DNA of 64,000 nt from Xenorhabdus mauleonii (GTDB taxonomy: Bacteria > Pseudomonadota > Gammaproteobacteria > Enterobacterales > Enterobacteriaceae), in assembly GCF_900113945.1 (NCBI RefSeq), contig NZ_FORG01000011.1:1-64000 (forward strand), in the 5' to 3' direction. The translations under genes and the position numbers were made by a program. The notes under the pieces are model-generated. The model saw only the letters and a list, made by a program, of their open reading frames with translations. It was not told where the DNA came from and did no database searches. Each line of letters starts with the position of its first letter. Position 1 is the first letter of the stretch. This document shows, piece by piece, positions 1 through 22,429 of this stretch.

Positions 1-110
1 TAGGCGCCGACATCGGCGGCGGTCAGACTGATGTCCCCGGCTAATGGTTTGCCGTTGACCCGGCGCCCGCTGGGCACCGCATTCCTGGCCTTGTCCCGCA
101 CTTCCACCAA
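1..110 (-). CDS. Phage tail-fibre protein, partial (runs off the left edge)
   Basis: Read on the minus strand, this stretch encodes a typical tail-fibre segment containing VRDKARNAVPSGRRVNGKPL followed by AGDISLTAADVGA. This is the repeated junction motif of P1/Mu/lambda-type side tail fibres, which bind the host surface. The frame stays open up to about position 185, inside the direct repeat, but no convincing start codon or ribosome binding site is visible, so the true N-terminus may be elsewhere or lost. The same GRRVN block occurs on the plus strand at about 19218-19244, in opposite orientation. Family recognition is by motif only, and the rest of the gene is outside the window. Confidence 0.6.
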   Translation of the reverse strand, partial: MVEVRDKARNAVPSGRRVNGKPLAGDISLTAADVGA

Positions 111-480
111 ACCAACGAATAACGTTGGCTTTCGTGCCAGAGTCACTGATGAATACGTGACGCTCTTAACGCTACCAAGGATGCTTTAACGTGACCACAA
201 ATATTTCAGTTAACAGCCAACCAATAGAAATTAACAGAAAGAAACCCAATTAAATTATCCGCTAACTTTAATAAAATCAAACAAGAATTGAGAAATAACA
301 CATTAAAAATATAGACATTTATTTTATTAAAAATAAATACAACAAGAAAATGCGATTTATTTTTTAATAATAAATACCACCCATTAAATTCAGGCTTAAT
401 TATTGATAATACAGCTTACTCTGCTAAAAAATCATCATTTTCAATTTAAATACCAAAGATAAGTTCTGTTATTCTGTCGA
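109..480. repeat. Left copy of a 372-bp direct repeat flanking the biosynthetic cluster
   Basis: This segment matches 19477-19848 base for base at a constant offset of 19,368, with scattered substitutions (roughly nine in ten bases identical by eye) and compensating small indels. It starts with a short hairpin (CCAAC...GTTGG at about 112-128) and is otherwise AT-rich and non-coding. The right copy lies directly before the lysis gene at 19879, so the repeat is probably the native phage intergenic segment between tail-fibre and lysis genes, duplicated when the cluster was inserted. Confidence 0.85.
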
Positions 481-619
481 TGGCGCCAGGCCTGGTAGCT
501 ACTGCGATAGACTCTGAACAGTTAGCAAGGAAAGCCACAGGATAAAGCACTCTTAATTGCTGGATTAACGAGAACTGTTCAGGTAATCCTGACATCAAGA
601 GTGTTGAGGGTTGTTATAA

Positions 620-870
620 GGGTCCATTCTCCATTTCAATCAGTTGCAGTTTCTTTTTCAATTCACGTATTTCAATTTGCTCCGGAGTATTATGCAGGGC
701 GCTGGGGGATTTACCTTGCCTCTTCCGGATCAACTGTAGAACTTAGCGGCCCAAGGCTGATTGACTGACATTCATCGCTCTGACGGCTTCGGCAATATTG
801 TAGTTTTGGTCAAGCACCAACTGAGCTGGCTCTAATTTTAATTCAGGACTAAAACCTTTTTCATTTTGTC
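620..870 (-). pseudogene. IS3-family OrfA transposase remnant
   Basis: Minus-strand translation gives a degraded IS3-type OrfA: the helix-turn-helix part (FSPELKLEPAQLVLDQNYNI, then AEAVRAMNVSQSALGR), an in-frame stop, then [20 protein letters not shown] and [15 protein letters not shown]. The spacing of these blocks and the leucine-zipper-like end are characteristic of OrfA of IS3-group elements. The OrfB catalytic half is absent and no terminal repeats were found. It lies between the direct repeat and the first cluster gene and marks past transposition at this boundary. Confidence 0.75.
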
Positions 871-1116
871 ACCGGTTGAATTATCGAAGTGAGAGTATCA
901 CCTCTATGACGGTGGCCAAAATCATTGAACCACATCACTATTTATTGCTCATAGTGGAATTTTGTTCGGTTTTATATTGAGCGTCAAAGATGTTTCTATT
1001 TTGTATTTTTTTGGTTATTTAAAGTGATAGTAATGTAACTATATTGTTGACCGTGAAATTATTACCATGTATATTTTTCCGCTATGAGACTGGAGATTGA
1101 GTCATAAAGTTACATC

Positions 1117-1269
1117 AGGTTGTGTCCCTTAACTCATTTTCGTAGTCGAACGATGGGCAAGACACACGAATTCCGTTCCTTTATTTGAACTGTTTTTGTC
1201 GTTTTTTATCATTATTGCCTGTAAGTAATGTTCGATTTTTCAGTGGAAAACAATTAAGGGACACAACCT
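1117..1269. repeat. 153-bp inverted-repeat element (MITE-like)
   Basis: The segment is bounded by a perfect 16-bp inverted repeat, AGGTTGTGTCCCTTAA at 1117-1132 and its complement at 1254-1269. Partial symmetry continues a few bases inward. The interior is AT-rich and non-coding. The size and structure fit a miniature inverted-repeat element or the deleted remains of an IS. No clear target-site duplication was found. Confidence 0.55.
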
Positions 1270-1562
1270 AAAACTTTATCTTCGCCAATATCAATTCTGG
1301 TGCTCATTCTAAATGGGAAATAATCAAATTTAAGCTTTGGAAGGTCTCAGAATTATACAAACACAAGGAAGGGGAGGTTAGGATTTCAAATATCCTTCCC
1401 CTCACTACCCTTTGGTTTGAAACGCTTTTGTCATTATTATTTCGTTGTAATGTAATAATTACATTAGTTAATAGGATCAGGTTTTAAATTAAAAATTCGT
1501 ATCTGTAAATGGAGCGTCCAGAAGGACACTTTTCTCACCTGCGTGCAATTCTCGAGGATATT

Positions 1563-1829
1563 ATGTCTAGTAATGTGGAACTGATTGTAACCATCAAAAA
1601 TATTTTGGCGAAAGAATTAAACATTAATTCTCTAGATGTATTGAATGAATCGACATCATTGCGTGATGATTTAGGTCTTGATTCAATGGCCACGCTGACA
1701 TTTCTGATGTCTCTTGAAGATAATGTCGATAACTTCACTATTGATGCCAATACCCTCGAGGGACATCACGTAGAAACAATTGGAACGATCTGTAACTATG
1801 TGAATGCCCGACTAGAGGAAACGGCATGA
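1563..1829 (+). CDS. Acyl/peptidyl carrier protein
   Basis: An 88-residue discrete carrier protein. The motif DLGLDSMATLTF places the serine that would carry phosphopantetheine at residue 41, and the rest fits the four-helix ACP fold. The start at 1563 is chosen because GAGGA sits about 5 bases upstream; an in-frame ATG at 1509 lacks this and would add an unusual N-terminus. It is the first gene of the cluster and would tether the intermediates handled by the ketosynthases, dehydrogenase and decarboxylase, with the adenylation enzyme at 12528 a likely loader. No phosphopantetheinyl transferase is visible in the window, so a host enzyme would be needed. Its base composition is more AT-rich than the genes after about 2900. 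Confidence 0.85.
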   Translation: MSSNVELIVTIKNILAKELNINSLDVLNESTSLRDDLGLDSMATLTFLMSLEDNVDNFTIDANTLEGHHVETIGTICNYVNARLEETA

Positions 1830-1830
1830 T

Positions 1831-2727
1831 ATGTTCTATATAAATCAGGTTTTTTGTAAGGTCATGGATAGGCGTGAATTAAGGCGAATACCCAGGAATC
1901 GGTTTACTACTTACCAGAAAGATTTACACCGAATAGCCCAAGATGTCCTCACAGAATCAACTCTGTTTGAAGGCGACCAGTATTCATACACTGAGCTTGG
2001 TGATGCAGTACTGGAAGGGATAGAAAATCCCTCAGACCTTGACGATGTTGATATGGCGATATTCTGCTACTGGACACCAGAGTTCGATCCGGATTATTCA
2101 GCGTTCGGCCCCTATTTTATGGATCGATATCAAATAAACGGTCATTCTTTTGATATCTGTGATAACGGAAGCCTGGCATCCTCCACAGCATTAACGATTG
2201 CTGGCAGTTATCTGAAAAATGGCAGTGTGCGGAAAATACTTTTACTTGGTATGGAGCAAAATACTATTCCGCGAAATCTGGCTCAGGGTTTTCACGTTCC
2301 ATCAAGATCATGTTCTGTTGCCGCATTATTAACAGCGGACAAAAGACCTGAAAGCCAATGGGTGCTGATTAATTCCGGCCATCTGACGGAATGGGAATCA
2401 GGACAATGCGAAGACGGCTATGGTTTGTTGGTGGATATTCTTCATCGATCAAATGTTGATGCTGAAGATGTTCTATTACTGACGCAACGCAGCGGATATT
2501 TCTATAAGAAACTCCGTTTTAAGCTGGAAACCACCTCACAGGAATTGCCAATAGACTATGCGTTTCTCCGTCCTGATGTAACAGGAATGAATGCTTTGCT
2601 TACTCTCGCAGGGGAAACTCTTGCGCCACTTAATAAACGAACCGTATTACTTATCGAGCATGATATGGAAAGCCTGAGAATGGCATGGTTAGTTATACAG
2701 AAAATTCAGGGGACGGAGCATGTTTGA
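1831..2727 (+). CDS. Ketosynthase-III-fold protein with Ser in place of the catalytic Cys
   Basis: A 298-residue thiolase-fold protein resembling the KSIII proteins at 11584 and 16288. Hand alignment of the nucleophile-elbow region (DNGSLASSTALTIAGSYL) with the NNCAS segment of the 11584 protein puts Ser114 where the active-site cysteine should be. KSIII homologues with Ser at this position are known (DpsC of daunorubicin synthesis), and they act as acyltransferase or starter-unit enzymes. The gene starts 2 bases after the carrier-protein stop and overlaps the next gene by 8 bases, so the three are co-translated. No PHN motif like that of the other two was found at the expected place, so it may be a non-condensing or regulatory partner. 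The exact role is unknown. Confidence 0.6.
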   Translation: MFYINQVFCKVMDRRELRRIPRNRFTTYQKDLHRIAQDVLTESTLFEGDQYSYTELGDAVLEGIENPSDLDDVDMAIFCYWTPEFDPDYSAFGPYFMDRYQINGHSFDICDNGSLASSTALTIAGSYLKNGSVRKILLLGMEQNTIPRNLAQGFHVPSRSCSVAALLTADKRPESQWVLINSGHLTEWESGQCEDGYGLLVDILHRSNVDAEDVLLLTQRSGYFYKKLRFKLETTSQELPIDYAFLRPDVTGMNALLTLAGETLAPLNKRTVLLIEHDMESLRMAWLVIQKIQGTEHV

Positions 2728-3367
2728 TATTTATCATCCCTTCGGGTCTAAGTATTACCAGCCATTTTCCTGGAATACGGAAGAAATATCTTTCAACGCC
2801 TATTCCAGCCGACAAAAAGTTGCTGTCCGCAGCGGATTTGCTGTGCTCTCAGAACATCAGTTAGCCCATCCACAGTTAAGTTTTATTACAGAAAACGGAA
2901 TTGACTGGCAGGACACGGCAGCGCTGAAGATTCACCAGAGCAGTGAAGTGATGAAACTCCATAACCTGGTGATATGTGAACTACCTCAGCTGGCGACTGA
3001 ATCGGCTGCATCGGGCGAACTGACGCTGTTGTCAGCCTGGCAACTCGAAATCGTGCGCAGCCAGCTGGAGTGGATTGAACGCTGGACACAGGTACTGATG
3101 GAACATGCTGCACAGCGCAAAGTCGGGGCATCCACCCTGTTGTCTGTCCCCTCCATTCGCGTGCGCCTTGGCCAGATCATGCAGCATCATGCCTTGCTTG
3201 TGCAATGTCTGGCTCTGGGCAACTGGTCAGCGCAGCAGGCGCTCACTGATATCGAAGGCATAGTTGATGCCCTGATCAAGACTGCGGGTGGGCGTGCCAT
3301 GCTGCAACACGGACTGGTAGAAATGAACAGCTTATTCGCCGTGTTAAACCTCATTTATCTCGGATAA
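2720..3367 (+). CDS. Small acyl-CoA-dehydrogenase-like helical protein
   Basis: A 215-residue protein whose second half (about residues 100-215) is helical and resembles the C-terminal four-helix domain of acyl-CoA dehydrogenases, ending in LIKTAGGRAMLQHGLVEMNS. The N-terminal flavin-binding part of a full dehydrogenase is missing. It overlaps the upstream ketosynthase-like gene by 8 bases and is 8 bases before the complete dehydrogenase gene, which suggests a heteromeric or accessory partner. Its function is inferred from resemblance and context only. It could also be an unrelated helical protein. Confidence 0.45.
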   Translation: MFDIYHPFGSKYYQPFSWNTEEISFNAYSSRQKVAVRSGFAVLSEHQLAHPQLSFITENGIDWQDTAALKIHQSSEVMKLHNLVICELPQLATESAASGELTLLSAWQLEIVRSQLEWIERWTQVLMEHAAQRKVGASTLLSVPSIRVRLGQIMQHHALLVQCLALGNWSAQQALTDIEGIVDALIKTAGGRAMLQHGLVEMNSLFAVLNLIYLG

Positions 3368-3375
3368 CGCCCATT

Positions 3376-4464
3376 ATGAATTTTGACCGTTCAGTCGCCC
3401 TCACTCACTACGATGAAAAATGGCTCGATCTGGCGCAGCTGTTTCGTTCTCTCTCTCTGGAAGTACTTAACGATCGCGATGTGGTACTGGAACATCTGGA
3501 CAGGCCGTATTTCGACGAGATCTATGCTGACCGTACCAGCACCTGCTTCGAACGCGCCCGCATGTATGAGGGCTTGTCATATGGCGATCCAAGCGTATTA
3601 CTCTCCTGTCCAGGACCTTCTCTTTCCGGCATCGTGCTGCGTGAATTAGGTTCGCAGGAACAACAGGATCAGTTCTTCGACCACGTTTCCCGCCAGCGGG
3701 CACGCACTTGCATGGCGGTGACGGAACCGGAAAAGGGATCGGATGCCGGTAATCCGACGTCCAACCTGAACGGTGACCATCAGCTCCAGGCGGAAAAGTG
3801 GCTGGTGGGGAATGGGCGTGAAGCCACGATGGGTACCATCGTGGTGAGAACCGGTCCAGGCCCCTACAGCATCGTCGTTGTGATGCTCACGCCTGAAACC
3901 CTCTCGCATGCCGGCACGTTCCGCCAGCTCCTGCCTCTGGCGGGCCTGCAGGGAACTGGTTTAAGCCATCTGTATTTTGACAATGTACCTGTCGAACCAG
4001 AGCAGATACTGGGTATGCACCGCCGCCCGCTGGAACGCGGTATGCATGCCGTCATCAAAACGTTCTATCGTATGCGCCCCTGTGTTTGCGCCATGGCCCT
4101 AGGTAATGCACAGGCGCTGCTGGATCATGCTCTACCGTATCTGAAAACCACGTCGGCACGGGAACTTCATCGTGCTCTACAAAGCCAGACAGACAGCGCG
4201 CGTGCCCTGAACCACCATGCAGCACAACGCATTGACGACCAGATCTTCGACGGAGCCGCCGTGTCACTGGCGAAAGCATGTGCAACGGAACTGGCTGAGA
4301 AAGTGGCTCGCAGCATGCCATTGCTGACCGGCACCGCTCATTTCCTGACGAATACCTGGCTACAGATAGCTACCACTAACGTCCATGGTTATGAATGGAT
4401 GGAAGGCAGTCTAGATATGCAACGTCTGAATATAGTGGCGGGTTATCACTCACCGGCGAAATAG
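3376..4464 (+). CDS. Acyl-CoA dehydrogenase family flavoprotein
   Basis: A 362-residue acyl-CoA dehydrogenase. The signature CMAVTEPEKGSDAG (about residues 115-128) is the flavin-binding TEPxxGSD motif, followed by the beta-domain segment GNGREATMGTIVVRTGPGP and a helical C-terminal domain. The C-terminal YEWMEG segment may supply the catalytic acid, as the Tyr-Glu-Gly element does in many family members. Enzymes of this family oxidise carrier-bound acyl or aminoacyl groups in pathways such as prolyl-PCP to pyrrolyl-PCP conversion (PigA, PltE). With the carrier protein and the adenylation enzyme here, desaturation of a carrier-bound substrate is the likely job. It could instead act on a CoA ester made by the ligase at 5905. 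Confidence 0.8.
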   Translation: MNFDRSVALTHYDEKWLDLAQLFRSLSLEVLNDRDVVLEHLDRPYFDEIYADRTSTCFERARMYEGLSYGDPSVLLSCPGPSLSGIVLRELGSQEQQDQFFDHVSRQRARTCMAVTEPEKGSDAGNPTSNLNGDHQLQAEKWLVGNGREATMGTIVVRTGPGPYSIVVVMLTPETLSHAGTFRQLLPLAGLQGTGLSHLYFDNVPVEPEQILGMHRRPLERGMHAVIKTFYRMRPCVCAMALGNAQALLDHALPYLKTTSARELHRALQSQTDSARALNHHAAQRIDDQIFDGAAVSLAKACATELAEKVARSMPLLTGTAHFLTNTWLQIATTNVHGYEWMEGSLDMQRLNIVAGYHSPAK

Positions 4465-4486
4465 CCCAAACATACGGATAAACGCG

Positions 4487-5857
4487 ATGTCAATGCAACC
4501 TGTGCTCAACCAACAACCAGCCCGTTGTTATCAGGGGTTGAAGTTGTTGAACACGCTCTGGGACACCACCTTTACACTCTGGGTCACGATGCTGGTGTCG
4601 TCCATTGCGGTGTTAATCAATATTGGCGTCATCAGCCAGAATGCACCCCAGACGCTCTACGCCTTAGGGTTATTTCTGCCGCTAAACTACATAATGATAG
4701 CCATCCATGAAGGATTGCGTATTCCTGCGTTGCGCTACAGCTCACAACATTACACCGACGCGCGCAACGTGATAGGCACGCGTCTGGTATTGCTGTTCAG
4801 CGCGATGGTGGTATTGATGGTTCTGCTTGTCGGCTCTGTCTGGCTGTTTCAACCAGGCATTGCCGGGCTGTTCCATATTGCTACCGAACGTCAGCACGAT
4901 GTCATGAGCTTCATTCTACCAATGTTGCTGGTAGGCATCCCTATTGGCTGCGCAACGCTGATTCTCTCCACCCTGTTCGGGAGTGGAGTTAATCGTTTTG
5001 CCAGCCTGTTGGGTATCAGCGGAACCGGCCTTAACCTAGCGGCGACATGGCTGGCAGCCATGCACTGGCACCAGGGGTTACAGAGCCTGATCTGGGGTGC
5101 GATGATCGGCAGCAGCTACTTGACGCTCAGCGGTGGCGCACTGCTTTACAGTCGAGGGATCCGGTTCTCACTCATTGGCGCCCGGCGTGAAGCTATTCAG
5201 GTATTGAATGATATTGCTTTTATTGGCGTACCGGTGGCGGGGAGTTTCCTGTTGCTGTTTGGTTTCTTGTTCTCTTTCAGCTACCTGGTGTCGTTTTACG
5301 GTGCCAGTGAAATCGCCGGTTTTGGTATTGCTTTCCGGATCCAGTCATTCGTCATTCTGCCCGCAATTGCACTCGGAACGGCCATGGCGATACACACCAA
5401 TAACGCGATAGCAGGGCAGAATTTTTCTCTTATTCGCCAGATCCTCTTTATCGGTGTGGGTCTTTCGGCCGCACTTTACCTAGTTATCAGCGTAGTGGTG
5501 TTCCTGCTACAGGAGCGCATGGTGATACTGTTCACGCGAGATGAAAACGTCATTATCCCAGCGTTGCGTTATCTGAACTGTGTTTCGCCGTCCTATCTCA
5601 GTCTGGGTGTGATGCTGGTGCTGATGACAGCGCAGGAACAGACCGGACAGGGGCTTCGAATATTGCTGATTAATACCGTCTTTTATGCGCTGGAAATTGG
5701 CGTTGCTGCCCTGCTAGGGCTTAACCACGAAGATGCGACGCGACTTTATCTGGTTATCGCCGTTATGAACTGGTTATCGGCACTGTACGTGGTTTACGAA
5801 TTGAATAAACGCCTGACCGCTCAGGTCAGATTGCCCCCACAGGAAATGCAATCTTAA
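4487..5857 (+). CDS. MATE-family efflux protein
   Basis: A 456-residue, strongly hydrophobic inner-membrane protein with about twelve predicted membrane segments in two halves, the expected size for the MATE (NorM/MatE) cation-coupled drug exporter family. It begins 22 bases after the dehydrogenase stop and is on the same strand as the cluster. Placed among biosynthetic genes and next to an RND pump, it most likely exports the product or confers self-resistance. The family call comes from hydropathy and overall pattern. No substrate can be read from the sequence. Confidence 0.75.
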   Translation: MSMQPVLNQQPARCYQGLKLLNTLWDTTFTLWVTMLVSSIAVLINIGVISQNAPQTLYALGLFLPLNYIMIAIHEGLRIPALRYSSQHYTDARNVIGTRLVLLFSAMVVLMVLLVGSVWLFQPGIAGLFHIATERQHDVMSFILPMLLVGIPIGCATLILSTLFGSGVNRFASLLGISGTGLNLAATWLAAMHWHQGLQSLIWGAMIGSSYLTLSGGALLYSRGIRFSLIGARREAIQVLNDIAFIGVPVAGSFLLLFGFLFSFSYLVSFYGASEIAGFGIAFRIQSFVILPAIALGTAMAIHTNNAIAGQNFSLIRQILFIGVGLSAALYLVISVVVFLLQERMVILFTRDENVIIPALRYLNCVSPSYLSLGVMLVLMTAQEQTGQGLRILLINTVFYALEIGVAALLGLNHEDATRLYLVIAVMNWLSALYVVYELNKRLTAQVRLPPQEMQS

Positions 5858-5904
5858 ACCAGATGGAACAGGTTCTTACTCACAAAATGCACTAGGAGTT
5901 ATGC

Positions 5905-7479
5905 ATGAAGCACAGCTTGGCAGAATTGATTCGCGATGCAGATACAAATTATCCAGATAAAACCGCCCTAATATTCAAAGATCATCACTACAGTTACCGT
6001 GATATCTGGATGCGGGTATGCGCTATCGCCGCAGGGATGCGCCAGCGTGGATTACAGGCCAGTGAAAGGGTGGTGATCTGCCTCGGCAACCATCCGGACA
6101 GCATCGCTGCGTTCTGGGCGGCACAGAAGCTTGGTGCCTGTCCATCTCTGGTCGCGACAGATACCCCTGTGAATAAACTGGCTTATATTATCAACAACAG
6201 CGGAGCCAGACAGCTACTGACTTCTCCGGCGATGTCCGGTGCGCTGATTGCATTTGGTCTGCAACAGATCCCAGAACTCAGCACCGTTATCGTGGCGGGA
6301 GAGCAGAGCAAAACAGAATTCTGTGTATCGCTGGATGATTTCACTGGCGATGCAGCAGCCGAAGCTCTTATCCCATTGCAGGCTATCAGCGTTGACCTTG
6401 CATCCATCATTTATACCTCAGGTTCGACCGGTGAACCCAAGGGGGTCATGCTGAACCATCAAAACATGCTAGCTGCTACTGATTCCTTAGCGACCTATCT
6501 GGGCTATCGCCATGACGATGTGATTATTACCGTCCTTCCGGTCGCGTTTGATTACGGCCTCTATCAACTCATTCTGAGCTGCTACGTCGGTGCCACAGTG
6601 GTGCTGGAACCCGATGGTATTTTACCCACTCTGGTGCTACGCCATATCCAGCAATACGCCTGCACTGTCATGCCAGGTCTGTCCTCGCTGTACAGTTTGC
6701 TGGATACCTACGCCAGCAGAGGCACATTTGACTTCAGTCGCGTGCGTCTGGTTTCCAATACCGGTATGGCATTACGCAAGCAACATATCGGGATGGTTAA
6801 GCGCCTGTTCCCGCAGGCTGAAATCTTTTCAATGTACGGCCTGACGGAGTGCAAACGCTGTACATGGCTTCCGCCTGCCGACCTTGAGCGCAAACCTGAC
6901 AGCGTCGGCATTGCCATTCCCAACACGCAAATATTGGTCGTGGATGAACAAAACCAACCTTATCCCCCAGGTGAAGTGGGGCAGCTAGTCATACGCGGTG
7001 CTACCGTGATGCAGGGTTACTGGCGTAATCCCGAAGCGACTGCGAAGAAGATTGGTGAGCATCCGCTGTATGGTGACCGTTGTCTATATACCGGTGACTA
7101 CGGCTGGCTGGATGAAGAAGGCTATTTTTACTTTGCCGGGCGCATGGACGAAGTCGCCAAAATTCGTGGTCGTAAGGTTATTTTCAGTGAAGTGGAAAAA
7201 GCGTTGTTCCGCCATGAGGCAGTCATCGAAGCGGCCGTCATTGTCCACAGTGATGAACAGGATCCTGAAGATCGTATCGTTGCGTTTGTTGCCACATCAT
7301 CGCCAGCCGCACTGACTGAAGCCGAACTACACCAGTTCTGCCTGACGCAGCTGGAACAGTATCAGGTCCCTCATGTCTTTGTGCTGCTGCCGCGGTTACC
7401 GAAAAACGCCAACGGTAAGTTTGACAAGCATAAGCTGCGCTCAGACTTTAAGGATGCCGCGCGGAGGTTACTGGCATGA
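5905..7479 (+). CDS. AMP-forming acyl-CoA/acyl-ACP ligase
   Basis: A 524-residue ANL-superfamily ligase. Visible motifs in order are the P-loop IIYTSGSTGEPKGVMLNH (A3), the aromatic substrate-pocket region VAFDYGLYQLIL (A4), SMYGLTECKR (A5), YTGDYGWLDEEGYFYFAGR (A7), KIRGRKVIFSEVE (A8) and the C-terminal lysine in NANGKFDKHKL (A10). A4 lacks the aspartate usual in amino-acid-activating domains, so a carboxylic acid rather than an amino acid is the likelier substrate. It resembles ligases found with stand-alone carrier proteins and PLP decarboxylases, including the exosortase-A-associated group. The start ATG at 5905 is preceded by AGGAG at 5894-5898. The next gene overlaps its stop by 4 bases. 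Confidence 0.8.
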   Translation: MKHSLAELIRDADTNYPDKTALIFKDHHYSYRDIWMRVCAIAAGMRQRGLQASERVVICLGNHPDSIAAFWAAQKLGACPSLVATDTPVNKLAYIINNSGARQLLTSPAMSGALIAFGLQQIPELSTVIVAGEQSKTEFCVSLDDFTGDAAAEALIPLQAISVDLASIIYTSGSTGEPKGVMLNHQNMLAATDSLATYLGYRHDDVIITVLPVAFDYGLYQLILSCYVGATVVLEPDGILPTLVLRHIQQYACTVMPGLSSLYSLLDTYASRGTFDFSRVRLVSNTGMALRKQHIGMVKRLFPQAEIFSMYGLTECKRCTWLPPADLERKPDSVGIAIPNTQILVVDEQNQPYPPGEVGQLVIRGATVMQGYWRNPEATAKKIGEHPLYGDRCLYTGDYGWLDEEGYFYFAGRMDEVAKIRGRKVIFSEVEKALFRHEAVIEAAVIVHSDEQDPEDRIVAFVATSSPAALTEAELHQFCLTQLEQYQVPHVFVLLPRLPKNANGKFDKHKLRSDFKDAARRLLA

Positions 7480-12531: not shown

Positions 12532-14126
12532 CAACGTGCCACCATTTAGGGCAATTACTGCAGGCTGCAGCCACGAAATATGAGGATTCTGAAGCGCTAT
12601 CGATAAAAGATGACAGCTGGAGTTACCAGCAGCTACATGAATTTGCTGCGCTGCTGGCCAGAGGCTTTGCTTTGTCGCAGGGAAAATATTGCGCGCTACT
12701 CGGACCGCGCCACATCGGCACGCTGGCCGGTGTGATAGCCGCTTTATGCTACGGCAAAACCTATCTACCGCTTAATGAAGAGGATCCTGCGGAACGGTTT
12801 GAACTACTGGCACGCAGTACAGGTTTCGATCTTCTGGTCACGCGTGAGCAGGAGCGTGGGCTGCTGCAAACACTGCTGGCGCAGAGTGAACCGCCGCTGG
12901 TAGTCATTCTCACAGATTGCCAGCGCATTCCGGACTGGTGTCGTGACTATCCGCAGCATCATTTCCTCGGAATAGATGATCTTGCTGTACTGCCTGTCGC
13001 AGAGCCATGCAGTGATAATCCACATGCCTACCTGATGTTCACCTCTGGCAGTACCGGTACGCCCAAGGGTGTTGAGGTTTCCCACGCCAATGTGGTTCGT
13101 TACGTCGAAAATACCGTAGCGCTGTATGAACCCAACCATAACGACCGTTTTTCCCAGCTGGCGCCATTAAGTTTCGATTTTTCTGTGCATGACCTGTTTG
13201 TCCCCTGGGCTGTCGGTGCATCAACACACGTATTCGACGGTAGCCAGAGTATGGCGTTGGGTCGATTAATTGATGAGAAACGGCTGACGTTCTGGGCTTC
13301 AGTACCATCAACTGCGCTCTGGCTAAAGCGATTGCGCCAGCTGACGCCGGGGGCATTCCCGTATTTGCGGCAGTCGCTGTTCTGCGGGGAACCCCTGTTA
13401 CATGGCGCTGCAGAAAGCTGGCAGGAAGCCGCACCATACTCGCGTATTGACAACATCTATGGCCCCACCGAAGCCACCGTCGCAGTATGCGGTTACCGCT
13501 GGAAAAGAGATCCCTCTCAGGCTGCAGGCGCAGTGGTGCCGATTGGTTATCCCTATCCGGGAACCCTACTGAAAATTGGCCGCTCACGTCAGGATGGTCG
13601 TGTCAGCGATGAAGGTGAACTGTGGATCGGCGGTGAACAGGTCGTGCAGGGCTATTGGCTTGGTTTGCCAGTGAAGACAGACAACTTCGTTATCGAAAAT
13701 GGTGAAGCCTGGTATCGCACGGGGGACTGGGCAATGCTGGATTCCGGGGGATGCCTACATTTTCTTGGCCGCTGTGACGATCAGCTGAAAATTCAGGGGC
13801 AACGGATCGAACGGCTGGAAATTGAATCCATGCTGCGACAGGTATCAGGAACCGAAGATGTTGCAGTGGTGGGCTGGCCGGTCATTGAAGGCAACAGTGT
13901 CGAGCGGCTGGTGTTTTTTGTTGGCGCACACCACAAAAGCAATCTGGAGTTACGCAAATTATGCCAAGAAACAATGCCACGCATTATGTGGCCAGGCAAG
14001 CTGGTGCTAGGCGCGATCCCGAAAAACCGCAATGGCAAAACTGACTATAAACAACTGCGCGTTGAACTGGAGGCAGATAGTCATACCTGCTGCGGCGCAG
14101 AACAACGTGTCACCGGACAAAGGTAA
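12528..14126 (+). CDS. Stand-alone amino-acid adenylation enzyme
   Basis: A 532-residue stand-alone adenylation domain. Motifs are YLMFTSGSTGTPKGVEVSH (A3), LAPLSFDFSVHDLFVPWAVG (A4, with the aspartate that binds the alpha-amino group in NRPS domains), NIYGPTEATV (A5), the YRTGDWAM segment (A7), FLGRCDDQLKIQGQRIE (A8) and NRNGKTDYKQL (A10). The A4 core resembles that of prolyl-AMP ligases of pyrrole pathways (PigI, PltF), so activation of an amino acid, possibly proline, and loading of the carrier protein at 1563 is the most reasonable reading. It overlaps the KSIII gene by 4 bases. The substrate call is tentative. Confidence 0.75.
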   Translation: MTTCHHLGQLLQAAATKYEDSEALSIKDDSWSYQQLHEFAALLARGFALSQGKYCALLGPRHIGTLAGVIAALCYGKTYLPLNEEDPAERFELLARSTGFDLLVTREQERGLLQTLLAQSEPPLVVILTDCQRIPDWCRDYPQHHFLGIDDLAVLPVAEPCSDNPHAYLMFTSGSTGTPKGVEVSHANVVRYVENTVALYEPNHNDRFSQLAPLSFDFSVHDLFVPWAVGASTHVFDGSQSMALGRLIDEKRLTFWASVPSTALWLKRLRQLTPGAFPYLRQSLFCGEPLLHGAAESWQEAAPYSRIDNIYGPTEATVAVCGYRWKRDPSQAAGAVVPIGYPYPGTLLKIGRSRQDGRVSDEGELWIGGEQVVQGYWLGLPVKTDNFVIENGEAWYRTGDWAMLDSGGCLHFLGRCDDQLKIQGQRIERLEIESMLRQVSGTEDVAVVGWPVIEGNSVERLVFFVGAHHKSNLELRKLCQETMPRIMWPGKLVLGAIPKNRNGKTDYKQLRVELEADSHTCCGAEQRVTGQR

Positions 14127-14128
14127 AC

Positions 14129-14439
14129 ATGTGCGGGCAAGGGCACGAGCTGCTGGCATATTGTTTACACACCCATGGCCAGTATGCCCAGGATGTCTGG
14201 CTTAAAGGGGCAATCTGTGCCAGTTACGAGACCCGCTATCCCACCATGATGCTGCAGATGATTGAGCAGGCACTCGGGCAGGCCGGGATGTGCGCAAGCG
14301 CTGCCATCATTTTCTGCTTGATTACCTTTTTCCCAGGCAAATTACTGAGATGTCGCTGCTGTGCAGCCGTAATATGAAAACGACTATCTTGCGCTACAGC
14401 ACCTTATAACACCGGCTGCCTGTATCGTGAAGAAGTAGG
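14129..14439 (+). pseudogene. Decayed C-terminal fragment of another ketosynthase III
   Basis: The first frame (AYCLHTHGQYAQDVWL...YETRYPTMMLQMIEQALGQAG) aligns by eye with the AHAIHTWPGYAHGIWL...LGQTG region of the 16288 ketosynthase. After about 14290 the similarity moves to another frame, giving LDYLFPRQITEMSLLCSRNM, the equivalent of the (I/V)PHN segment but with the catalytic His changed to Arg. After a further shift the frame reads on to a stop at about 14439. The N-terminal two-thirds, including the cysteine region, is missing. The piece is therefore a frameshifted remnant of a third family copy lying between intact genes, probably left by a tandem duplication and deletion. Confidence 0.6.
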
Positions 14440-14448
14440 AGGTACGTA

Positions 14449-15381
14449 ATGCAACATACTTTAACCGACACCCTTCCTGATCAGGGATGTGGTGTGGCGC
14501 ACTATTGCTGGAATTCAGTGCTGGGGGAGGTATCAGCCAGCCTATGGTACCCCGCCTTCATCGGTACGGGTAAGGCAGTACATTACCTGCGTGTACTGCA
14601 GGCCCAGGCCGAAGAGGGGGCGATCCCCAGCAGTGAGTGCTGGCCGTTGGTCATCATGTCACATGGCGCAGGCGGGTCGCGCTTTGATCAGTACTATCTG
14701 GCTGAATGCCTGGCAGCGCGGGGATTTGCGGTGTTAACCGTCGATCACCGGGATATTCAGGACGGGCAACAACGCTGGCGGAATCTGCTGACGCGGCCAT
14801 TGCGTCTGACTCTCGCTCAGCAAGCATTACGGCATGAAGTCCTAGCGGAAAATATCGACTTCTCGCGACCGCTGTTAATCGGCCATTCTGCTGGTGCGTA
14901 CGATGTGCTGGTGAAATGCGGTTGTACACCGCGTTTCGAACTGGAAGAAGAGTTCAGTTCGGTGTTAACCGAACTGGCGGCCTTTGACAGTGCGGTATGT
15001 CGCCTGGCTTCGCCACTTGGCGTCGTGTTAATGGCTCCTGCGCTCTCTAACCTGTTCCCGTCAGAGTCATTGTCCTCGCTGGAGATCCCAGCGCTGATTA
15101 TTTCAGCAGACCAGGATGGCGTGCGCATGCTGGGAACTCCCGCGGATTATGCGGCGCGTCTACCAACCGTCATTCACCACACGCTGTCGGGTGCCGGTCA
15201 CTATGCTTTTGTTCATGAAAATCCTCCGATACTCCAGGCGCTGAACCCCGTGGTGAGCAGCGGGGACGTGCGGCCGCGCAAACAACTGCATGAAGAGATC
15301 ATCAACCATTTAATGGCTTTCTGCGATCGGTTATGCCATGGGGAGCTAACACTTACACAAGGAGCAACACAATATGTTTGA
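14449..15381 (+). CDS. Alpha/beta hydrolase (dienelactone-hydrolase/PAF-acetylhydrolase-like)
   Basis: A 310-residue alpha/beta hydrolase. The oxyanion-loop motif VIMSHGAGGSRFDQY and VLTVDHRD precede the nucleophile elbow LLIGHSAGAYD (Ser147). The acid is probably the Asp in IISADQDG and the base the His in SGAGHYAF. It resembles esterases of the platelet-activating-factor acetylhydrolase group and could act as a thioesterase or esterase that releases or tailors the product. AGGAGG lies 7 bases before the ATG. It overlaps the transglutaminase-like gene by 8 bases. No signal peptide is visible, so it is probably cytoplasmic. Confidence 0.8.
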   Translation: MQHTLTDTLPDQGCGVAHYCWNSVLGEVSASLWYPAFIGTGKAVHYLRVLQAQAEEGAIPSSECWPLVIMSHGAGGSRFDQYYLAECLAARGFAVLTVDHRDIQDGQQRWRNLLTRPLRLTLAQQALRHEVLAENIDFSRPLLIGHSAGAYDVLVKCGCTPRFELEEEFSSVLTELAAFDSAVCRLASPLGVVLMAPALSNLFPSESLSSLEIPALIISADQDGVRMLGTPADYAARLPTVIHHTLSGAGHYAFVHENPPILQALNPVVSSGDVRPRKQLHEEIINHLMAFCDRLCHGELTLTQGATQYV

Positions 15382-16300
15382 TCCAGTCTGTCACTACAGG
15401 CAGCACACAGCTGTGACCCAGCCGGGACGTTTTGCCGCAGCGCTGGATGCATTACCTGACGATGTGGATGGATTAATTGGTGCGGTGCAGAATCTGCTGA
15501 TTCATTATCAGACGGATAAAGCCAAACTGTCGCCAGAGATCATCGCTGCCCGCAGCGCAGAAGTGGATTTGCGCTGGACAGAGACGATGCTTGCCCGTCT
15601 GATTCAATTACAGGACGGAAACTTGCTTTATCCCCGTGAACCAGTGAAACGCCTGCTATGTACCTGCCGCGATTTTGCTGTATTGCTGTGCGCTTTCATG
15701 CGCCATAAGCAGATCTCGGCCCGCGTTCGTTATGGCTTTGCGCACGATCAATACAAGCCTGAACGGCCGATGCATGACCATGTACTGGTGGAATACTGGG
15801 ATGGACAGCAGTGGCGTTATGCCGAAAGCCGTCTGCATGTGCTGCCGGAACCTCTGCTGGATATTGAACAGACAAATTTTCCGCATGAACTGTTCTTTAG
15901 CGGCGGAGAAATATGGCGTCAGATCCGGACCGGCTCTCTCAGAGAGCGTGCTTTCAGTGGTTACCACTTTGATGACGACTATGGCCAGTGGACCGTGCGT
16001 AACCTGTTTCTGCTCGATATGACCTCACTATGCGACTACGAACCTCTCATGTGGGATGCATGGGGAGTATTGCTGGAGGAAAAACCCGGCGCACGTGTTA
16101 CGCATGCTGACCAGTTGGCGTTGCTCGACAGCCTAGCTCAACGGGATCCTTGTGATGCCTCAGACTGTGAGGCACTGCGTAACGCTTTGCTGGCCTGTCC
16201 TGAACTCTGTTGCCAGCAAGATGTTCACAGCTTCAGCCCGGTGAAAGGTGCTTACCGCGTCAATCTCCATAAGAACAGGGAGGAGCCATGCGTCATATGA
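15374..16300 (+). CDS. Transglutaminase-fold protein
   Basis: A 308-residue protein with a papain/transglutaminase-like core. Cys98 lies in LLCTCRDFAVLLCAF, the histidine in MHDHVLVEYW (His134 or His136), and an acidic residue follows in WRYAESRLHV. This order and spacing is that of bacterial transglutaminase-like domains, which can act as amidases, amide synthases or acyltransferases. The open frame overlaps the hydrolase gene upstream by 8 bases and the KSIII gene downstream by 13 bases. In a cluster with a carrier protein it could form or cleave an amide or thioester bond; that role is inference. The C-terminal 100 residues show no recognisable domain. Confidence 0.7.
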   Translation: MFDPVCHYRQHTAVTQPGRFAAALDALPDDVDGLIGAVQNLLIHYQTDKAKLSPEIIAARSAEVDLRWTETMLARLIQLQDGNLLYPREPVKRLLCTCRDFAVLLCAFMRHKQISARVRYGFAHDQYKPERPMHDHVLVEYWDGQQWRYAESRLHVLPEPLLDIEQTNFPHELFFSGGEIWRQIRTGSLRERAFSGYHFDDDYGQWTVRNLFLLDMTSLCDYEPLMWDAWGVLLEEKPGARVTHADQLALLDSLAQRDPCDASDCEALRNALLACPELCCQQDVHSFSPVKGAYRVNLHKNREEPCVI

Positions 16301-17229
16301 CCCTAGATAGACTGTCCAGCTATCTGCCCGCCACGACTCTGGTGCTTGAGCGCGATTATGAGCGCCTCGGCATTTCGCAGAATCAGGCACGGGTGTTCAG
16401 CCGTATGTATGAACTACCCAATTGCCCGATAGAAGAGGGGGATGAACTTAACATGCTGCAGCAAACCTGCGAGGAGTTGCTGGAAGACGATGACCAGTTG
16501 CGTCAAAAAATCGGCATCGTGATATATGCTCATACTGGCGCCGTCAGCGGTGTGTGGGGGCAAAGCATTGTTACTCAACTAGTGCGAGCTCTGGGGCTGC
16601 AGCATGCAATGCCGCTGGCTACCTGCAGCAATAACTGCGTGGCGATTTTTTCCGCATTGGATATAGCGAGACACTATCTGCAGGGTACAACCCCTGATAC
16701 AAAAGCACTGATAGTGGTGGGCGAAATTGCTGACAATGTTGAGCTACGTGTAGTGGCAAACGTAGCGATTGTTGGCGACGGTGCAGGAGCAGGTATCTTC
16801 TCGCTGGCCGGTTCTGGTCCAAAGGTGCTGGCTCACGCCATTCATACCTGGCCAGGCTATGCCCATGGTATCTGGCTTCCTACAAACTCTGAATGCTACA
16901 AAGATTTTGAACTGCACTATCAGTTTCGCCTGAAGGCTGTGATTGACGATGTGCTGGGACAAACGGGAACAACACTGGATCAGATTAGCTGGGTTGTGCC
17001 CCATAACGTCAATATCTGGATGTGGCGAAGGGCAGCAACGTATCTTGGCTTCTCGCTGGAGAAAATATTCCTGAGTAATATCCGCCGAACGGCTCACTGT
17101 TTAGGTGCAGATATGTTCATCAATTTTCATTCGTTGCAGGAAGGTGTTGAATTTCAGGGCGGCGATAAAGTGCTGATGGTTTCCACAGGGGTGGGTGGGG
17201 TATTTGGCGCTGCGTTGTTTCAGTATTAA
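16288..17229 (+). CDS. Ketosynthase III (FabH-like), second Cys-His-His copy
   Basis: A 313-residue paralogue of the 11584 enzyme. Cys117 lies in TCSNNCVAIFSAL, the first His in WVVPHNVNIWMWR, and a His occupies the usual Asn position in RTAHCLGADMFINF. The shared HCxGAD block suggests both belong to one subfamily. An ATG occurs at 16288 and another at 16297; a GGAGG at 16279-16283 favours the first. Two KSIII enzymes, one Ser variant and one remnant in a single cluster suggest successive condensations or a heterodimer. The natural substrate is unknown. Confidence 0.8.
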   Translation: MRHMTLDRLSSYLPATTLVLERDYERLGISQNQARVFSRMYELPNCPIEEGDELNMLQQTCEELLEDDDQLRQKIGIVIYAHTGAVSGVWGQSIVTQLVRALGLQHAMPLATCSNNCVAIFSALDIARHYLQGTTPDTKALIVVGEIADNVELRVVANVAIVGDGAGAGIFSLAGSGPKVLAHAIHTWPGYAHGIWLPTNSECYKDFELHYQFRLKAVIDDVLGQTGTTLDQISWVVPHNVNIWMWRRAATYLGFSLEKIFLSNIRRTAHCLGADMFINFHSLQEGVEFQGGDKVLMVSTGVGGVFGAALFQY

Positions 17230-17254
17230 TTCACTATCTTATGAGGATCTGATA

Positions 17255-17518
17255 ATGACTTATGAAATCAGCCAGGTGGCAATTTACGGGCTAACCACAC
17301 TGACAATTACAAAATTATTTACGTCGGTATGGTTATTCGGTGAGGTAATTATTGTCACCTTATTATTTACCGTCAGATCACGCAAATTAATGCGAATTTC
17401 GCTGCCTGGTGGCGTCAATGTTGATAACGCCAGCCGTACGAGATCGTTGCACGTATTATCACTCTTTTCACTGCTTGCTTCGGCAAGACTGGTACTGTGC
17501 CTGATAATGGGGCAGTAG
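17255..17518 (+). CDS. Small two-helix membrane protein, unknown function
   Basis: An 87-residue hydrophobic protein with one long membrane segment near residues 8-36 (VAIYGLTTLTITKLFTSVW and onward) and a second at the C-terminus (SLFSLLASARLVLCLIMG), separated by a basic, polar stretch. The start at 17255 is preferred because GAGGA lies 7 bases upstream. An upstream in-frame extension would overlap the ketosynthase gene. It is the last gene before a weak hairpin. No family was recognised. A role linked to export or product immunity is possible but unsupported. Confidence 0.55.
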   Translation: MTYEISQVAIYGLTTLTITKLFTSVWLFGEVIIVTLLFTVRSRKLMRISLPGGVNVDNASRTRSLHVLSLFSLLASARLVLCLIMGQ

Positions 17519-17520
17519 TT

Positions 17521-17555
17521 ACTGACATTAATCACTTCGATTGACGTCAGTTTTT
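17521..17555 (+). terminator. Hairpin followed by five T
   Basis: ACTGAC pairs with GTCAGT and, inside it, AATC pairs with GATT. TTTTT follows the hairpin. It lies between the small membrane protein gene and the decarboxylase gene, which has its own AAGGA site, so it may partly separate their transcription. Confidence 0.45.
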
Positions 17556-17616
17556 ATCTGTAAGCATTTTATTACCAATGACGTCACTGATATTTACGTT
17601 AATTTAAGGATAAATT

Positions 17617-18876
17617 ATGGCTCAGAACCACAACGACACATCATTAAGCCTTTCCCTGCAAATTGCTGACAAATTTATTATTGAGAATGATTGCTTAACC
17701 ATTGGCGGCATCCCGCTTCCCCGCCTGGCACAACAGGTAGGGCAGACGCCTTTTTTTGCCTATTCTCGTGAGCTCATTAACCGTCAGGCGCAGTTATTAA
17801 GAGCTCATATTCCAGAAAAAGTCAGTATTCACTATGCCATTAAAGCGAACCCGTTTGTTCCCGTCATTCATCACCTATCGCGACTAGTAGAAGGGTTTGA
17901 TGTGGCCTCAGCGAATGAAATGGCGCTGGCATTAAACAGTGGCGTTTCGCCGGAAGATATCAGTTTTGCTGGACCTGGGAAGACGGTAGAAGAACTGCAA
18001 CGTGCTGTGGCAGCACAGGTATTACTAAATGTCGAATCAATCACCGAGTTGCAACGAATTAAAGCTATTGCAGCGGAATACGGTTTCGCAGCGCGCATCT
18101 CACTCCGTATCAACCCGGATTACAACCTCAATTCATCCGGTATGAAAATGGGCGGTGGGCCGCGTCAGTTCGGTATGGATGTGTCCTGTGTACAAGACGC
18201 CATGATGGTGATCCGTGACAACCCTGAACAATTATATTTCGAAGGATTTCAGATCTTTCCCGGCTCGCAAAACTTACGGGCTGATTTCCTGATCGAAGCA
18301 CAGAGCAAGGCGCTAGATCTGGTGATTGAGTTAGCGAAAATAGCGCCCAGCCCAGTACGCCGTTTTAACCTCGGTGGTGGATTTGGTGTGCCTTACTTCC
18401 AGGGGAATAAAGAGCTGGATGTAGCTGCTGTAGGGAAGGCCATGCATGCCCTGGTTGCTAAAGCAGAACAGCATCTGCCGGAGGCGGAAATTATTCTGGA
18501 ACTTGGGCGCTTTCTCGTTGCCCCTGCAGGTATCTATGTAGCGAAGATCATTGACCGTAAGGTCTCGCATGACGTGACTTATCTGGTCGCTGATGGCGGC
18601 ATGAACCACCACCTTGCCGCTTCGGGCAACTTAGGCCAGCTTATCCGCCGAAACTATCCTGCTGTCATCGGTAACAAAGTACAGGGGCAGCAGCGCGAAG
18701 TAGTCAATGTGGTCGGTCCGTTATGCACGCCGCTGGATATTCTGCTGAACCAAGGAGATATCGCTGTAGCAGAACCGGGGGACTATATTGTCATTTTCCA
18801 GTCCGGAGCTTACGGTCTGACCGCCAGCCCGAATGGTTTTCTTAGCCAGAAAATCGCGGCAGAAGTGTTAGTTTGA
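17617..18876 (+). CDS. PLP-dependent fold-III decarboxylase (diaminopimelate/ornithine type)
   Basis: A 419-residue alanine-racemase-fold decarboxylase. The PLP lysine is Lys76 in HYAIKANPF. GFDVASANEM, the glycine-rich phosphate loop FNLGGGFGVPY and the C-terminal GPLCTPLDIL, with the partner-subunit cysteine, are all present. It is closer in style to carrier-linked or exosortase-associated decarboxylases, and to BtrK (glutamyl-ACP decarboxylase of butirosin synthesis), than to housekeeping LysA. This suggests decarboxylation of an amino acid on the cluster's carrier protein, but that is inference. The start has AAGGA 7 bases upstream. It is the last recognisable gene of the cluster. Confidence 0.85.
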   Translation: MAQNHNDTSLSLSLQIADKFIIENDCLTIGGIPLPRLAQQVGQTPFFAYSRELINRQAQLLRAHIPEKVSIHYAIKANPFVPVIHHLSRLVEGFDVASANEMALALNSGVSPEDISFAGPGKTVEELQRAVAAQVLLNVESITELQRIKAIAAEYGFAARISLRINPDYNLNSSGMKMGGGPRQFGMDVSCVQDAMMVIRDNPEQLYFEGFQIFPGSQNLRADFLIEAQSKALDLVIELAKIAPSPVRRFNLGGGFGVPYFQGNKELDVAAVGKAMHALVAKAEQHLPEAEIILELGRFLVAPAGIYVAKIIDRKVSHDVTYLVADGGMNHHLAASGNLGQLIRRNYPAVIGNKVQGQQREVVNVVGPLCTPLDILLNQGDIAVAEPGDYIVIFQSGAYGLTASPNGFLSQKIAAEVLV

Positions 18877-18915
18877 ATTAGGACAAATTTGATTGAACAA
18901 AAGGTGATGATTTTA

Positions 18916-19302
18916 ATGAGTAAATTACTCAGCGGTGTACTTCAGTTTATTAGCCATATCGCTCTATGTACCCTCTTTTCGGGGTATCTTGTTTCTGCCT
19001 GTGCCCAACCCGCTCATGAAGCGGGTTTCCGGCGAGTAAGTACACATCTTGCGGACCATGGCTCCCTGAGTGATTTCCTTCAGCTCCAGCGTCGCAGCGA
19101 TTTGAGCCAGTGGAGGTGTCTGGATTTAGCATACCCCTACATTACCAACCAACTGAGAAAAGAATTGCTTGGTAATACAAACAAACGTGTTACCGATGTC
19201 AATGGACGTGTTCCTTCCGGGCGCCGGGTCAACGACAAACCAAGTTTTATAAAAACTGTACGCATCAATCCCTTGTACTCATTTGCGGACATATCTCGAT
19301 AA
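18916..19302 (+). CDS. Composite ORF: secretion-signal-like start joined to a tail-fibre fragment
   Basis: 128 residues from ATG 18916, which has AGGTG upstream. Residues 1-33 are hydrophobic and end in LVSAC, which fits a lipoprotein signal. The middle is not recognised, and the nucleotides at about 19008-19029 form a GC-rich hairpin. Residues from about 92 on (VTDVNGRVPSGRRVNDKP) are clearly a phage tail-fibre junction motif in the opposite orientation to the copy at 1-110. Similarity stops abruptly after KP. The ORF therefore looks like a fusion created by recombination at the right edge of the cluster insertion, and it may not encode a functional protein. Confidence 0.4.
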   Translation: MSKLLSGVLQFISHIALCTLFSGYLVSACAQPAHEAGFRRVSTHLADHGSLSDFLQLQRRSDLSQWRCLDLAYPYITNQLRKELLGNTNKRVTDVNGRVPSGRRVNDKPSFIKTVRINPLYSFADISR

Positions 19303-19476
19303 AAGGCAACTAATAACAGGCTGTTTTTTTATTCTGTTAACCCGTTTTTATGGTGAAAAAATAGCCTCAAGATGAGGCCATAAAAATAAACACCAACAAG
19401 CACAAAACAAGAACAGATTCACATAACAAATATAAGCATTGGGAAAGAGAAAGGGATTGGATAAATAAAAACAAAA

Positions 19477-19848
19477 AAACCAACAAATAACGTTGGCTTT
19501 CGTGCCAGAGTCACTGATGAATACGTGACGCTCTTAACGCTACCAAGGATACTTTAACGTGGCCACAAATATTTCAGTTAACAACCAACCAATAGAAATT
19601 AACAGAAAGAAACCCAATTAGATTATCCGCTAACTTTAACAAAATCAAACAAAAATTGATAATTAACACATTAAAAATATAGGCATTTATTTTATTAAAA
19701 ATAAATACAGCAATAAAATTGCGGTTTATTTTTAATAAAAAATACCACCCATCAAATTCTTATTTAATTATTTATAAACCCGCTTACCCTGCTAAAAAAG
19801 CATTATTTTCAATTTAAATCCCAAAGAGAAGTTTTGTTATTCTGCCGA
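19477..19848. repeat. Right copy of the 372-bp direct repeat
   Basis: It corresponds to 109-480 at a constant offset of 19,368 and is in the same orientation. It ends 30 bases before the lysis-gene start, so it probably holds the native promoter region of the lysis operon. The 175 bases before it (19303-19476) are AT-rich with no gene. Confidence 0.85.
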
Positions 19849-19878: not shown

Positions 19879-20184
19879 GTGCAACCAGAAACTGAGGCTT
19901 TGGCACTAGCGATTGCCTTTTCTGTGTTCAGCGGCATTGGCGTCTATCTGCAAGGGATCCGTGAAAAACGGATTTCTGGCCATGCTATGGATTTGCTGAC
20001 TGAACTCATCATGTCAGTCAGTGCGGGGCTTGTCGCTTATTACCTCGCGCAGCACCAACAATGGGATGACCCTCTGATGTTTATCGCGGTCATCGGTGCC
20101 AGCAATAACGGGCAAGAACTGCTGACCGGCATAAGAAATAAATTAGTTCAACTATTTGATTACGCATTTGGGAGTAAAAAATGA
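19879..20184 (+). CDS. lydA: Phage holin, LydA-like
   Basis: 101 residues from GTG 19879, chosen because GGGGAG lies about 8 bases upstream and because the longer in-frame extension has no similarity to holins. The protein has a first hydrophobic segment (LALAIAFSVFSGIGVYL), a basic stretch and a second hydrophobic region (ELIMSVSAGLVAYYLA, then PLMFIAVIGAS), typical of small phage holins that permeabilise the inner membrane at the end of infection. P1 has its LydA holin in a similar place, next to an antiholin and the DarA-type operon. Assignment to LydA rests on size, hydropathy and gene order. Confidence 0.65.
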   Translation: MQPETEALALAIAFSVFSGIGVYLQGIREKRISGHAMDLLTELIMSVSAGLVAYYLAQHQQWDDPLMFIAVIGASNNGQELLTGIRNKLVQLFDYAFGSKK

Positions 20185-22428: not shown

Positions 22429-22429
22429 C

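Follow-up and report, generated by a model that had tools for sequence, protein, structure and literature searches.

How does a gene cluster for a specialised metabolite come to lie between the tail-fibre and lysis genes of a phage? The question is raised by the first 64,000 bases (the window) of contig C78 (156,276 bp) in the draft assembly of Xenorhabdus mauleonii (5.1 Mb, 94 contigs); the contig begins at window position 1. Here a biosynthetic cluster of 17.4 kb (1509-18876), whose main open reading frames (ORFs) all run rightward on one strand, lies between two direct repeats, R1 and R2. An earlier note, made from the sequence alone, had described it as cargo of a P1-like phage-plasmid. 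The reading favoured here, with a probability of about 0.75, is that C78 is a P1-like phage-plasmid of about 156 kb, probably circular, and that a small-molecule cluster acquired by horizontal transfer entered the interval from its tail-fibre genes to lydA by recombination.

The repeats and the joints

The features that define the site are as follows.

1..116, minus strand: opening part of the variable tail-fibre segment S', truncated at the contig start (100% to residues 1-36 of S' on C78)
about 102-116, no strand: cix/gix-like half-site bordering S' (half-site pattern)
109..480, no strand: direct repeat R1, intergenic, with a terminator-like hairpin at its start as judged by eye
495..941, no strand: repeated-DNA remnant, likely an insertion sequence (three other genome places match at 68-69%)
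1118..1268, no strand: element resembling a miniature inverted-repeat transposable element (MITE), with exact 15-bp terminal inverted repeats (sequence)
19147..19242, plus strand: tail-fibre fragment, residues 196-238 with a gap, ending at AAACCA(A) (sequence comparison)
19237..19476, no strand: ancestral spacer, homologous to the pre-repeat spacer of the related genome G026 (sequence comparison)
19477..19848, no strand: direct repeat R2, in the ancestral position before lydA (sequence comparison)

R1 and R2 are identical at 336 of 372 ungapped positions (9.7% divergence), with a longest identical run of 65 bases and the spacing of 19,368 bases that the earlier note had reported. This likeness is not due to chance. 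Searched against the whole assembly, R2 found itself, R1 (E 1.4e-148) and a 51-base inverted match within R2; R1 and R2 are the only full copies in the genome. Each is about 72% identical to the repeat of G026 and 68-69% to that of G023, two genomes of the same genus. Because the repeats are about equally distant from both relatives and differ from one another by 9.7%, they are best read as sister sequences, and the idea that the insertion had freshly duplicated them does not hold.

Direct repeats of this kind could act as a live excision module, with recombination between them releasing, reinserting or amplifying the cluster. We consider such a module quite unlikely, despite the direct orientation, the 65-bp identical stretch and the single-copy sites in relatives that would suit it: with 9.7% divergence, frequent recombination is not to be expected, the assembly shows no third, recombined repeat copy, and neither an integrase or recombinase among the 17 cluster ORFs (Pfam) nor a match to P1 cin or cre in 109-19848 was found.

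Tail-fibre sequence stands on both sides of the cluster and lydA follows R2, which agrees with the placement first proposed, beside tail-fibre fragments and directly before the lysis operon. The left piece, bases 3-116 on the minus strand, codes for the beginning of the variable segment of the tail fibre; it is interrupted by the contig end and resumes at the other end of the contig, while the right piece is a real remnant. At the left joint R1 starts on AAACCAA, which forms the core of a cix-like half-site (named after the P1 annotation) where the tail fibre ends, and a spacer of about 230 bases is missing. The right joint runs from a cut gene through about 100 bases of unassigned origin to the tail-fibre fragment, the spacer, R2 and lydA. 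AAACCA(A) is present at both joints, at the right one as the end of the tail-fibre fragment. It is the core of the invertase crossover sites, a hint, short of proof, that the joints were shaped by a Cin-type invertase or by short homology.

A different route, arrival by transposition with the repeats as incidental phage duplications, is fairly unlikely. It could draw on the probable insertion-sequence remnant, which also matches a fourth genome place over 52 bases at 96% and whose copy elsewhere on C78 overlaps the end of an integrase-core (rve) transposase ORF; on the MITE-like element upstream of the carrier-protein gene, whose termini occur once each on C78; and on a Tn3-family transposase and resolvase elsewhere on the plasmid. 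The right side, however, has no matching element, but the cut gene, intermediate bases, tail-fibre fragment, spacer and R2 instead. No second match to the left remnant adjoins the cluster, so the like insertion sequences at both ends that mark a composite transposon are not seen, and Pfam identifies no transposase among the 17 cluster ORFs.

An assembly error that linked a chromosomal cluster to a phage contig is very improbable. The draft comprises 94 contigs and a contig end adjoins R1, which would leave room for one. However, repeat copies whose longest identical run is 65 bases can be told apart, so that misassembly through them is unlikely as far as the assembled sequence, considered without reads, can tell; the right joint holds intermediate, partly degraded sequence; and the genome has no second copy of the cluster gene KAS-III b (a ketoacyl synthase III homologue) above FabH level except KAS-III a of the same cluster.

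The empty site in relatives

The earlier note had proposed to look for an empty site in related elements, and such a site was found in two same-genus genomes, G023 and G026, each with one homologous repeat copy before lydA. The description of the repeats as a phage intergenic segment is likewise supported. When the repeat and lysis genes were compared with 99 relatives, 10 matched at E <= 1e-3, among them G000, G023 and G026 strongly and the other seven over stretches of only 31-56 bases. In G023 the repeat lies between a tail fibre and lydA on a single 57-kb contig that holds one repeat copy in all. In G026, 291 bases separate the repeat from the contig end on its upstream side; the outermost 63 of them encode tail fibre (E 6e-7 against G023 and 1e-7 against C78), and one repeat copy was found in the 12 kb examined. 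Neither empty-site locus contains cluster genes, and neither genome contains a relative of KAS-III b above FabH level. In P1, lydC and the invertase gene cin occupy the stretch from tail fibre to lydA; L079, a metagenomic relative, has cin directly before lydA. L079 is the only independent one of the viral contigs with PacB/LydB matches, as L077 and L078, which match contig C13 of G026 in length (81,973), probably equal that contig. A close PacB occurs in four of 30 genus genomes (G000, G023, G026 and, split, G001); the G001 contig yielded neither the repeat nor a tail fibre, lydA, lydB or hdf.

The phage-plasmid backbone

Bases 1-115 of C78 recur exactly at 156162-156276 and inverted at 154608-154722. 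The sole further match in an assembly-wide search is one of 25 bases at 19218-19242, and no other contig holds a full-length copy. Given this 115-bp terminal overlap, the only continuation open to the left end of C78 is the right end of the same contig, which probably closes as a circle of about 156.2 kb. The inverted pair bounds a tail-fibre segment resembling the C-segment of P1, at which a short-read assembler would be expected to halt.

Comparison with Escherichia phage P1 (NC_005856) supports the assignment of C78 to the P1-like phage-plasmids, as the earlier note had claimed. Of 91 hand-picked P1 proteins, 49 match C78 in tblastn at E <= 1e-3; mod, several small genes and c1 were left out of the set, and pacB was taken as an open frame from estimated coordinates. 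Identity to P1 is 61% for PacB, 60% for ParA, 56% for RepA, 50% for the portal, 47% for the capsid, 45% for ParB, 44% for DarB, 42% for the sheath and 37% for the Cre relative. P1-type genes for replication and partition (RepA, ParA, ParB) are thus accompanied by genes for packaging and virion (PacA, PacB, portal, capsid, sheath, tube, baseplate, fibre). PacAB, ParAB, RepA, a Cre relative, DarB and head, tail and baseplate genes are common to C78, P1 and P1-like phage-plasmids. Furthermore, lydA-lydB-hdf-darA-ddrA lie directly downstream of R2 in the P1 order, and in both elements they adjoin the tail fibres. C78 differs from P1 in size (about 156 kb against 94.8 kb), in bearing the metabolite cluster and a nonribosomal peptide synthetase (NRPS), and in having no cin or lydC match in the tail-fibre/lysis interval. 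Weak matches to isaA and cin, the latter falling on a resolvase gene at 86.7 kb, were not counted as orthologues. No P1 protein matches within 109-19848. The backbone genes in the window are:

19879..22813, plus strand: lydA, lydB, hdf, darA and ddrA homologues, lysis and anti-restriction (P1 comparison)
25664..26533, plus strand: RepA (56% to P1 RepA)
58291..60500, plus strand: ParA and ParB (P1 comparison)
61190..63924, plus strand: PacA and PacB terminase (P1 comparison)

Whether C78 still behaves as a phage is a separate matter. It may instead be a decayed, cargo-laden P1 relative without complete phage formation, in which the cluster is ordinary plasmid cargo; we hold this to be a real possibility, with the odds somewhat against it. 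Its size of 156 kb, the unmatched P1 proteins and the other non-phage cargo, including the NRPS, would fit decay, while the capsid, portal, terminase, sheath, tube, baseplate, fibre and lysis genes that are present speak against it. P1 relatives differ in many of the genes that are missing here.

Near-match searches of window 1-22000 against plasmid and phage collections returned no match. A distant search with 18600-26500 returned 23 phage and 908 plasmid records, none covering 80% of the query; the phage records listed match through endolysin/baseplate-lysozyme genes, and the 30 plasmid records listed of the 908 through repA-type genes.

Several other genes of the element were recorded. An endolysin-like gene at 22939-23307 has a partial second copy about 2 kb downstream (24920-25284), 81-90% identical over two blocks. 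At 32014-33066 (minus strand) lies a homologue of the candidate defence family PDC-S02 (E 3.1e-147, PADLOC). Beyond the window, C78 encodes a VgrG-type spike protein (104926-106785, minus strand; Phage_GPD and Gp5 domains) and a VRR-NUC protein (97520-99097, minus strand), and the Tn3-family transposase and resolvase genes lie at 83530-87378.

The cluster and its predicted pathway

All 17 cluster ORFs were searched against Pfam, and NCBIfam was also used. All are on the plus strand:

1509..1829, plus strand: acyl/peptidyl carrier protein (PF00550)
1831..2727, plus strand: ketoacyl synthase (KAS)-like protein, named by resemblance; no Pfam or NCBIfam match
2720..3367, plus strand: protein of unassigned function, kept in three full clusters; no Pfam match
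3376..4464, plus strand: acyl-CoA dehydrogenase family protein (Pfam/NCBIfam)
4487..5857, plus strand: MATE-family exporter (PF01554 above cut-off, TIGR00797 below cut-off)
5905..7479, plus strand: stand-alone AMP-forming ligase (TIGR03098-like, below cut-off)
7476..8549, plus strand: membrane-fusion (HlyD-type) protein of an RND pump (PF13437, PF16576)
8546..11587, plus strand: RND transporter, AcrB family (PF00873, 1.7e-225)
11584..12531, plus strand: KAS-III homologue a (Pfam/NCBIfam)
12528..14126, plus strand: stand-alone amino-acid adenylation enzyme (Pfam/NCBIfam)
14129..14377, plus strand: remnant (82 codons) of a third KAS-III gene that is intact in Vibrio ruber; no Pfam match
14449..15381, plus strand: alpha/beta hydrolase (Pfam)
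15374..16300, plus strand: transglutaminase-like protein (PF01841)
16288..17229, plus strand: KAS-III homologue b (Pfam/NCBIfam)
17195..17518, plus strand: small ORF, 75% to Serratia silvae; no Pfam match
17617..18876, plus strand: pyridoxal phosphate-dependent decarboxylase (TIGR03099, 598.7 bits against a cut-off of 478.45)
18889..19038, plus strand: broken gene, about the first 50 codons of a protein 346 amino acids long in S. silvae (sequence comparison); its ORF, 18889-19302, has no Pfam match

The genes suggest a carrier-protein (type II NRPS-like) pathway, and the MATE and RND/HlyD domains agree with the earlier statement that the cluster has its own exporters. Its G+C content is 51.7%, compared with 43.5% in window 19849-64000. 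Among solved structures, the decarboxylase is closer to BtrK, the L-glutamyl-carrier-protein decarboxylase of the butirosin pathway and its best PDB match (1.1e-71), than to diaminopimelate decarboxylases (best 1.9e-44), and a carrier-bound action is predicted for it here. Other butirosin genes were not noticed in the cluster, which was not searched for them by name. Judged by the V. ruber homologues and known motifs, the catalytic Cys and His appear to be missing from the KAS-like protein encoded at 1831-2727. In the pathway proposed, amino acids would be loaded onto the carrier protein, one of them would be decarboxylated there by the BtrK-like enzyme, the units would be oxidised and joined by the KAS-III enzymes, an amide would be closed by the transglutaminase-like protein, and the product would leave through the MATE and RND pumps. 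The host would gain the product through lysogenic conversion.

Relatives of the cluster outside phages

Two further loci hold the cluster in the same order. In V. ruber DSM 16370 (L037, L056, L057) 14 of the 17 window ORFs are matched at 38-71% identity, and in the enterobacterium G307 (contig C26) 14 of 17 at 40-74%. The V. ruber cluster has one KAS-III and one adenylation gene more than that of C78; since G307, with the same main genes as C78, likewise lacks both, their absence from C78 need not mean decay. The 82-codon remnant at 14129-14377 matches residues 170-225 of this additional V. ruber KAS-III (23 of 56 identical, E 4e-12). The description of the cluster as complete is therefore only partly sustained: the main genes of G307 are all there, but the two V. 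ruber genes are lacking, the KAS-III remnant is a fragment and the last gene is cut after about 50 codons.

The neighbours of these clusters (an rRNA methyltransferase, an esterase and an ABC transporter in V. ruber; a DUF4123 gene and type I-E cas genes in G307) are not phage genes, and P1 proteins found no match around the V. ruber (40 kb), G307 (34.5 kb) or S. silvae (20 kb) loci. A first assignment of the first G307 ORF as VgrG was dropped, as it has no Pfam match. In S. silvae Arafor3 (L038) a remnant of 2,030 bp at 89.5% DNA identity comprises the end of KAS-III b, the small ORF, the decarboxylase and the start of the last gene; the rest of the cluster is absent from the 20-kb stretch. 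Between the two decarboxylase copies, nonsynonymous divergence (dN) is 0.036 and synonymous divergence (dS) 0.376, which points to purifying selection since their split, before or after capture.

KAS-III b was found at two loci in genome contigs, those of V. ruber and S. silvae. Against the 99 relatives it matched 89 at E <= 1e-3; outside G000 the best (G042, G018) reach 27-30% identity, and the rest are lower, at FabH level. KAS-III a had no match in viral contigs. The transglutaminase-like protein occurs in two of 392 family genomes (G000 and G307), in 19 of 196 Vibrio-genus genomes at E <= 1e-8 (58% identity in V. ruber, 25-32% in the others) and in none of seven genomes of the S. silvae genus, an empty result that is not proof of absence. 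In tblastn it matched 22 plasmid records, all below 60% identity, and the AMP ligase matched 95 phage records, all below 60% identity, of which the 20 listed resemble generic ligases.

More distant clusters on G018:C71 and G042:C1 (L044-L047) combine adenylation enzymes, KAS-III and two acyl-CoA dehydrogenases with a decarboxylase 36-37% identical to that of C78; their composition is Vfm-like by resemblance only. The Vfm quorum-sensing cluster of Dickeya is described as having 26 genes and as encoding three adenylation proteins together with an ABC permease and a two-component system (PMC9306890). It shares stand-alone adenylation proteins, a carrier protein and a MATE exporter with the C78 cluster, a likeness of description rather than of Vfm sequence (PMC9306890). 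The C78 cluster differs in having no two-component system among its 17 ORFs (Pfam) and two AMP-binding enzymes (5905-7479 and 12528-14126) where Vfm has three.

How the cluster may have entered

With its type present outside phages in Vibrio and an enterobacterium, the cluster would have had a latest donor close to the one that left the S. silvae remnant. The interval it entered would be that in which P1 and L079 have cin. Entry would have been by recombination between two related tail-fibre/intergenic copies, of which R1 and R2 now flank the cluster. The most economical history is that two related copies of tail fibre, spacer and repeat came to flank it, either as two related phage-plasmids recombined or as a circle with one copy integrated. 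Later deletions at crossover-like sites would have followed, and the right-hand tail-fibre copy would have decayed.

Several points weigh against this history. With the insertion-sequence and MITE-like remnants on its left side, a transposition step may still have been involved, the motif at the joints is only 6-7 bases long, and R1 and R2, about equally far from G023 and G026, give no clue as to which copy is native. The empty site is informed by two relatives only, the third phage-bearing relative, G001, being uninformative. The circle and the repeats are seen in assembled sequence only. Of the P1 proteins, 42 of 91 found no match in C78. P1-like elements average 96 kb, and phages package only a few per cent above their own genome size (PMC9600943). 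The 156,276 bp of C78 are far above that figure, which is an average and not a strict limit; either the capsid is larger, or a single particle has no room for the whole element, and one virion may thus not hold all of it. Lastly, the product and function of the cluster are predictions.

A second biosynthetic locus on the plasmid

Outside the window, at C78 70778-81280 (minus strand; locus L004 6778-17280), lies a three-module NRPS of 3500 amino acids without an internal stop, with three condensation domains, three AMP-binding domains, three carrier stretches and a thioesterase. Genes for nitroreductase and carbon-nitrogen hydrolase lie next to it. The best full-length genus match shares 63% identity with the first 1000 residues, and G024 shares 71% with them over 590 residues; a 1000-residue piece of the protein has matches at E <= 1e-200 in 29 of 60 genomes, all of the same genus, which is rich in NRPS genes. 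The contigs of G001 and G023 and the G026 stretch gave no match to the plasmid NRPS. A wider reading, possible but doubtful, is that the phage-plasmid serves as a vehicle of specialised metabolism, with two loci (the type II NRPS/KAS-III-like cluster and the three-module NRPS), the first captured at the former invertase locus by cix chemistry, moved between bacteria as a phage.

Implications

Phage-borne clusters as such are already known. In the excerpts available, phage-plasmid-like elements from freshwater and saltwater showed a tendency to carry genes for parts of biosynthetic pathways (PMC13221032), the accessory genes named are those for resistance, virulence and defence (PMC11652158), and actinobacterial prophages held no clusters for known antiphage molecules (PMC10023795). 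Clusters have been described on plasmids, and the two phage-plasmids by their phage genes, in what is available of PMC9648514, and phage-plasmids appear only among the references in that of PMC11619367. No report of the C78 cluster, or of an NRPS/KAS-III-type cluster on a P1-like element, was found in the open-licence literature, represented mostly by titles and abstracts.

The movement of specialised-metabolite clusters between distant bacteria is rarely visible. C78 carries a pathway-sized gene set on a phage-plasmid; its empty site can be identified, its joints can be read, and Serratia, Vibrio and another enterobacterium have relatives of it. That a phage transfers a pathway of about 17 kb thereby becomes directly testable, and the genes for the product are open to deletion and expression. 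A virus of bacteria might in this way ferry a chemical pathway between bacteria.

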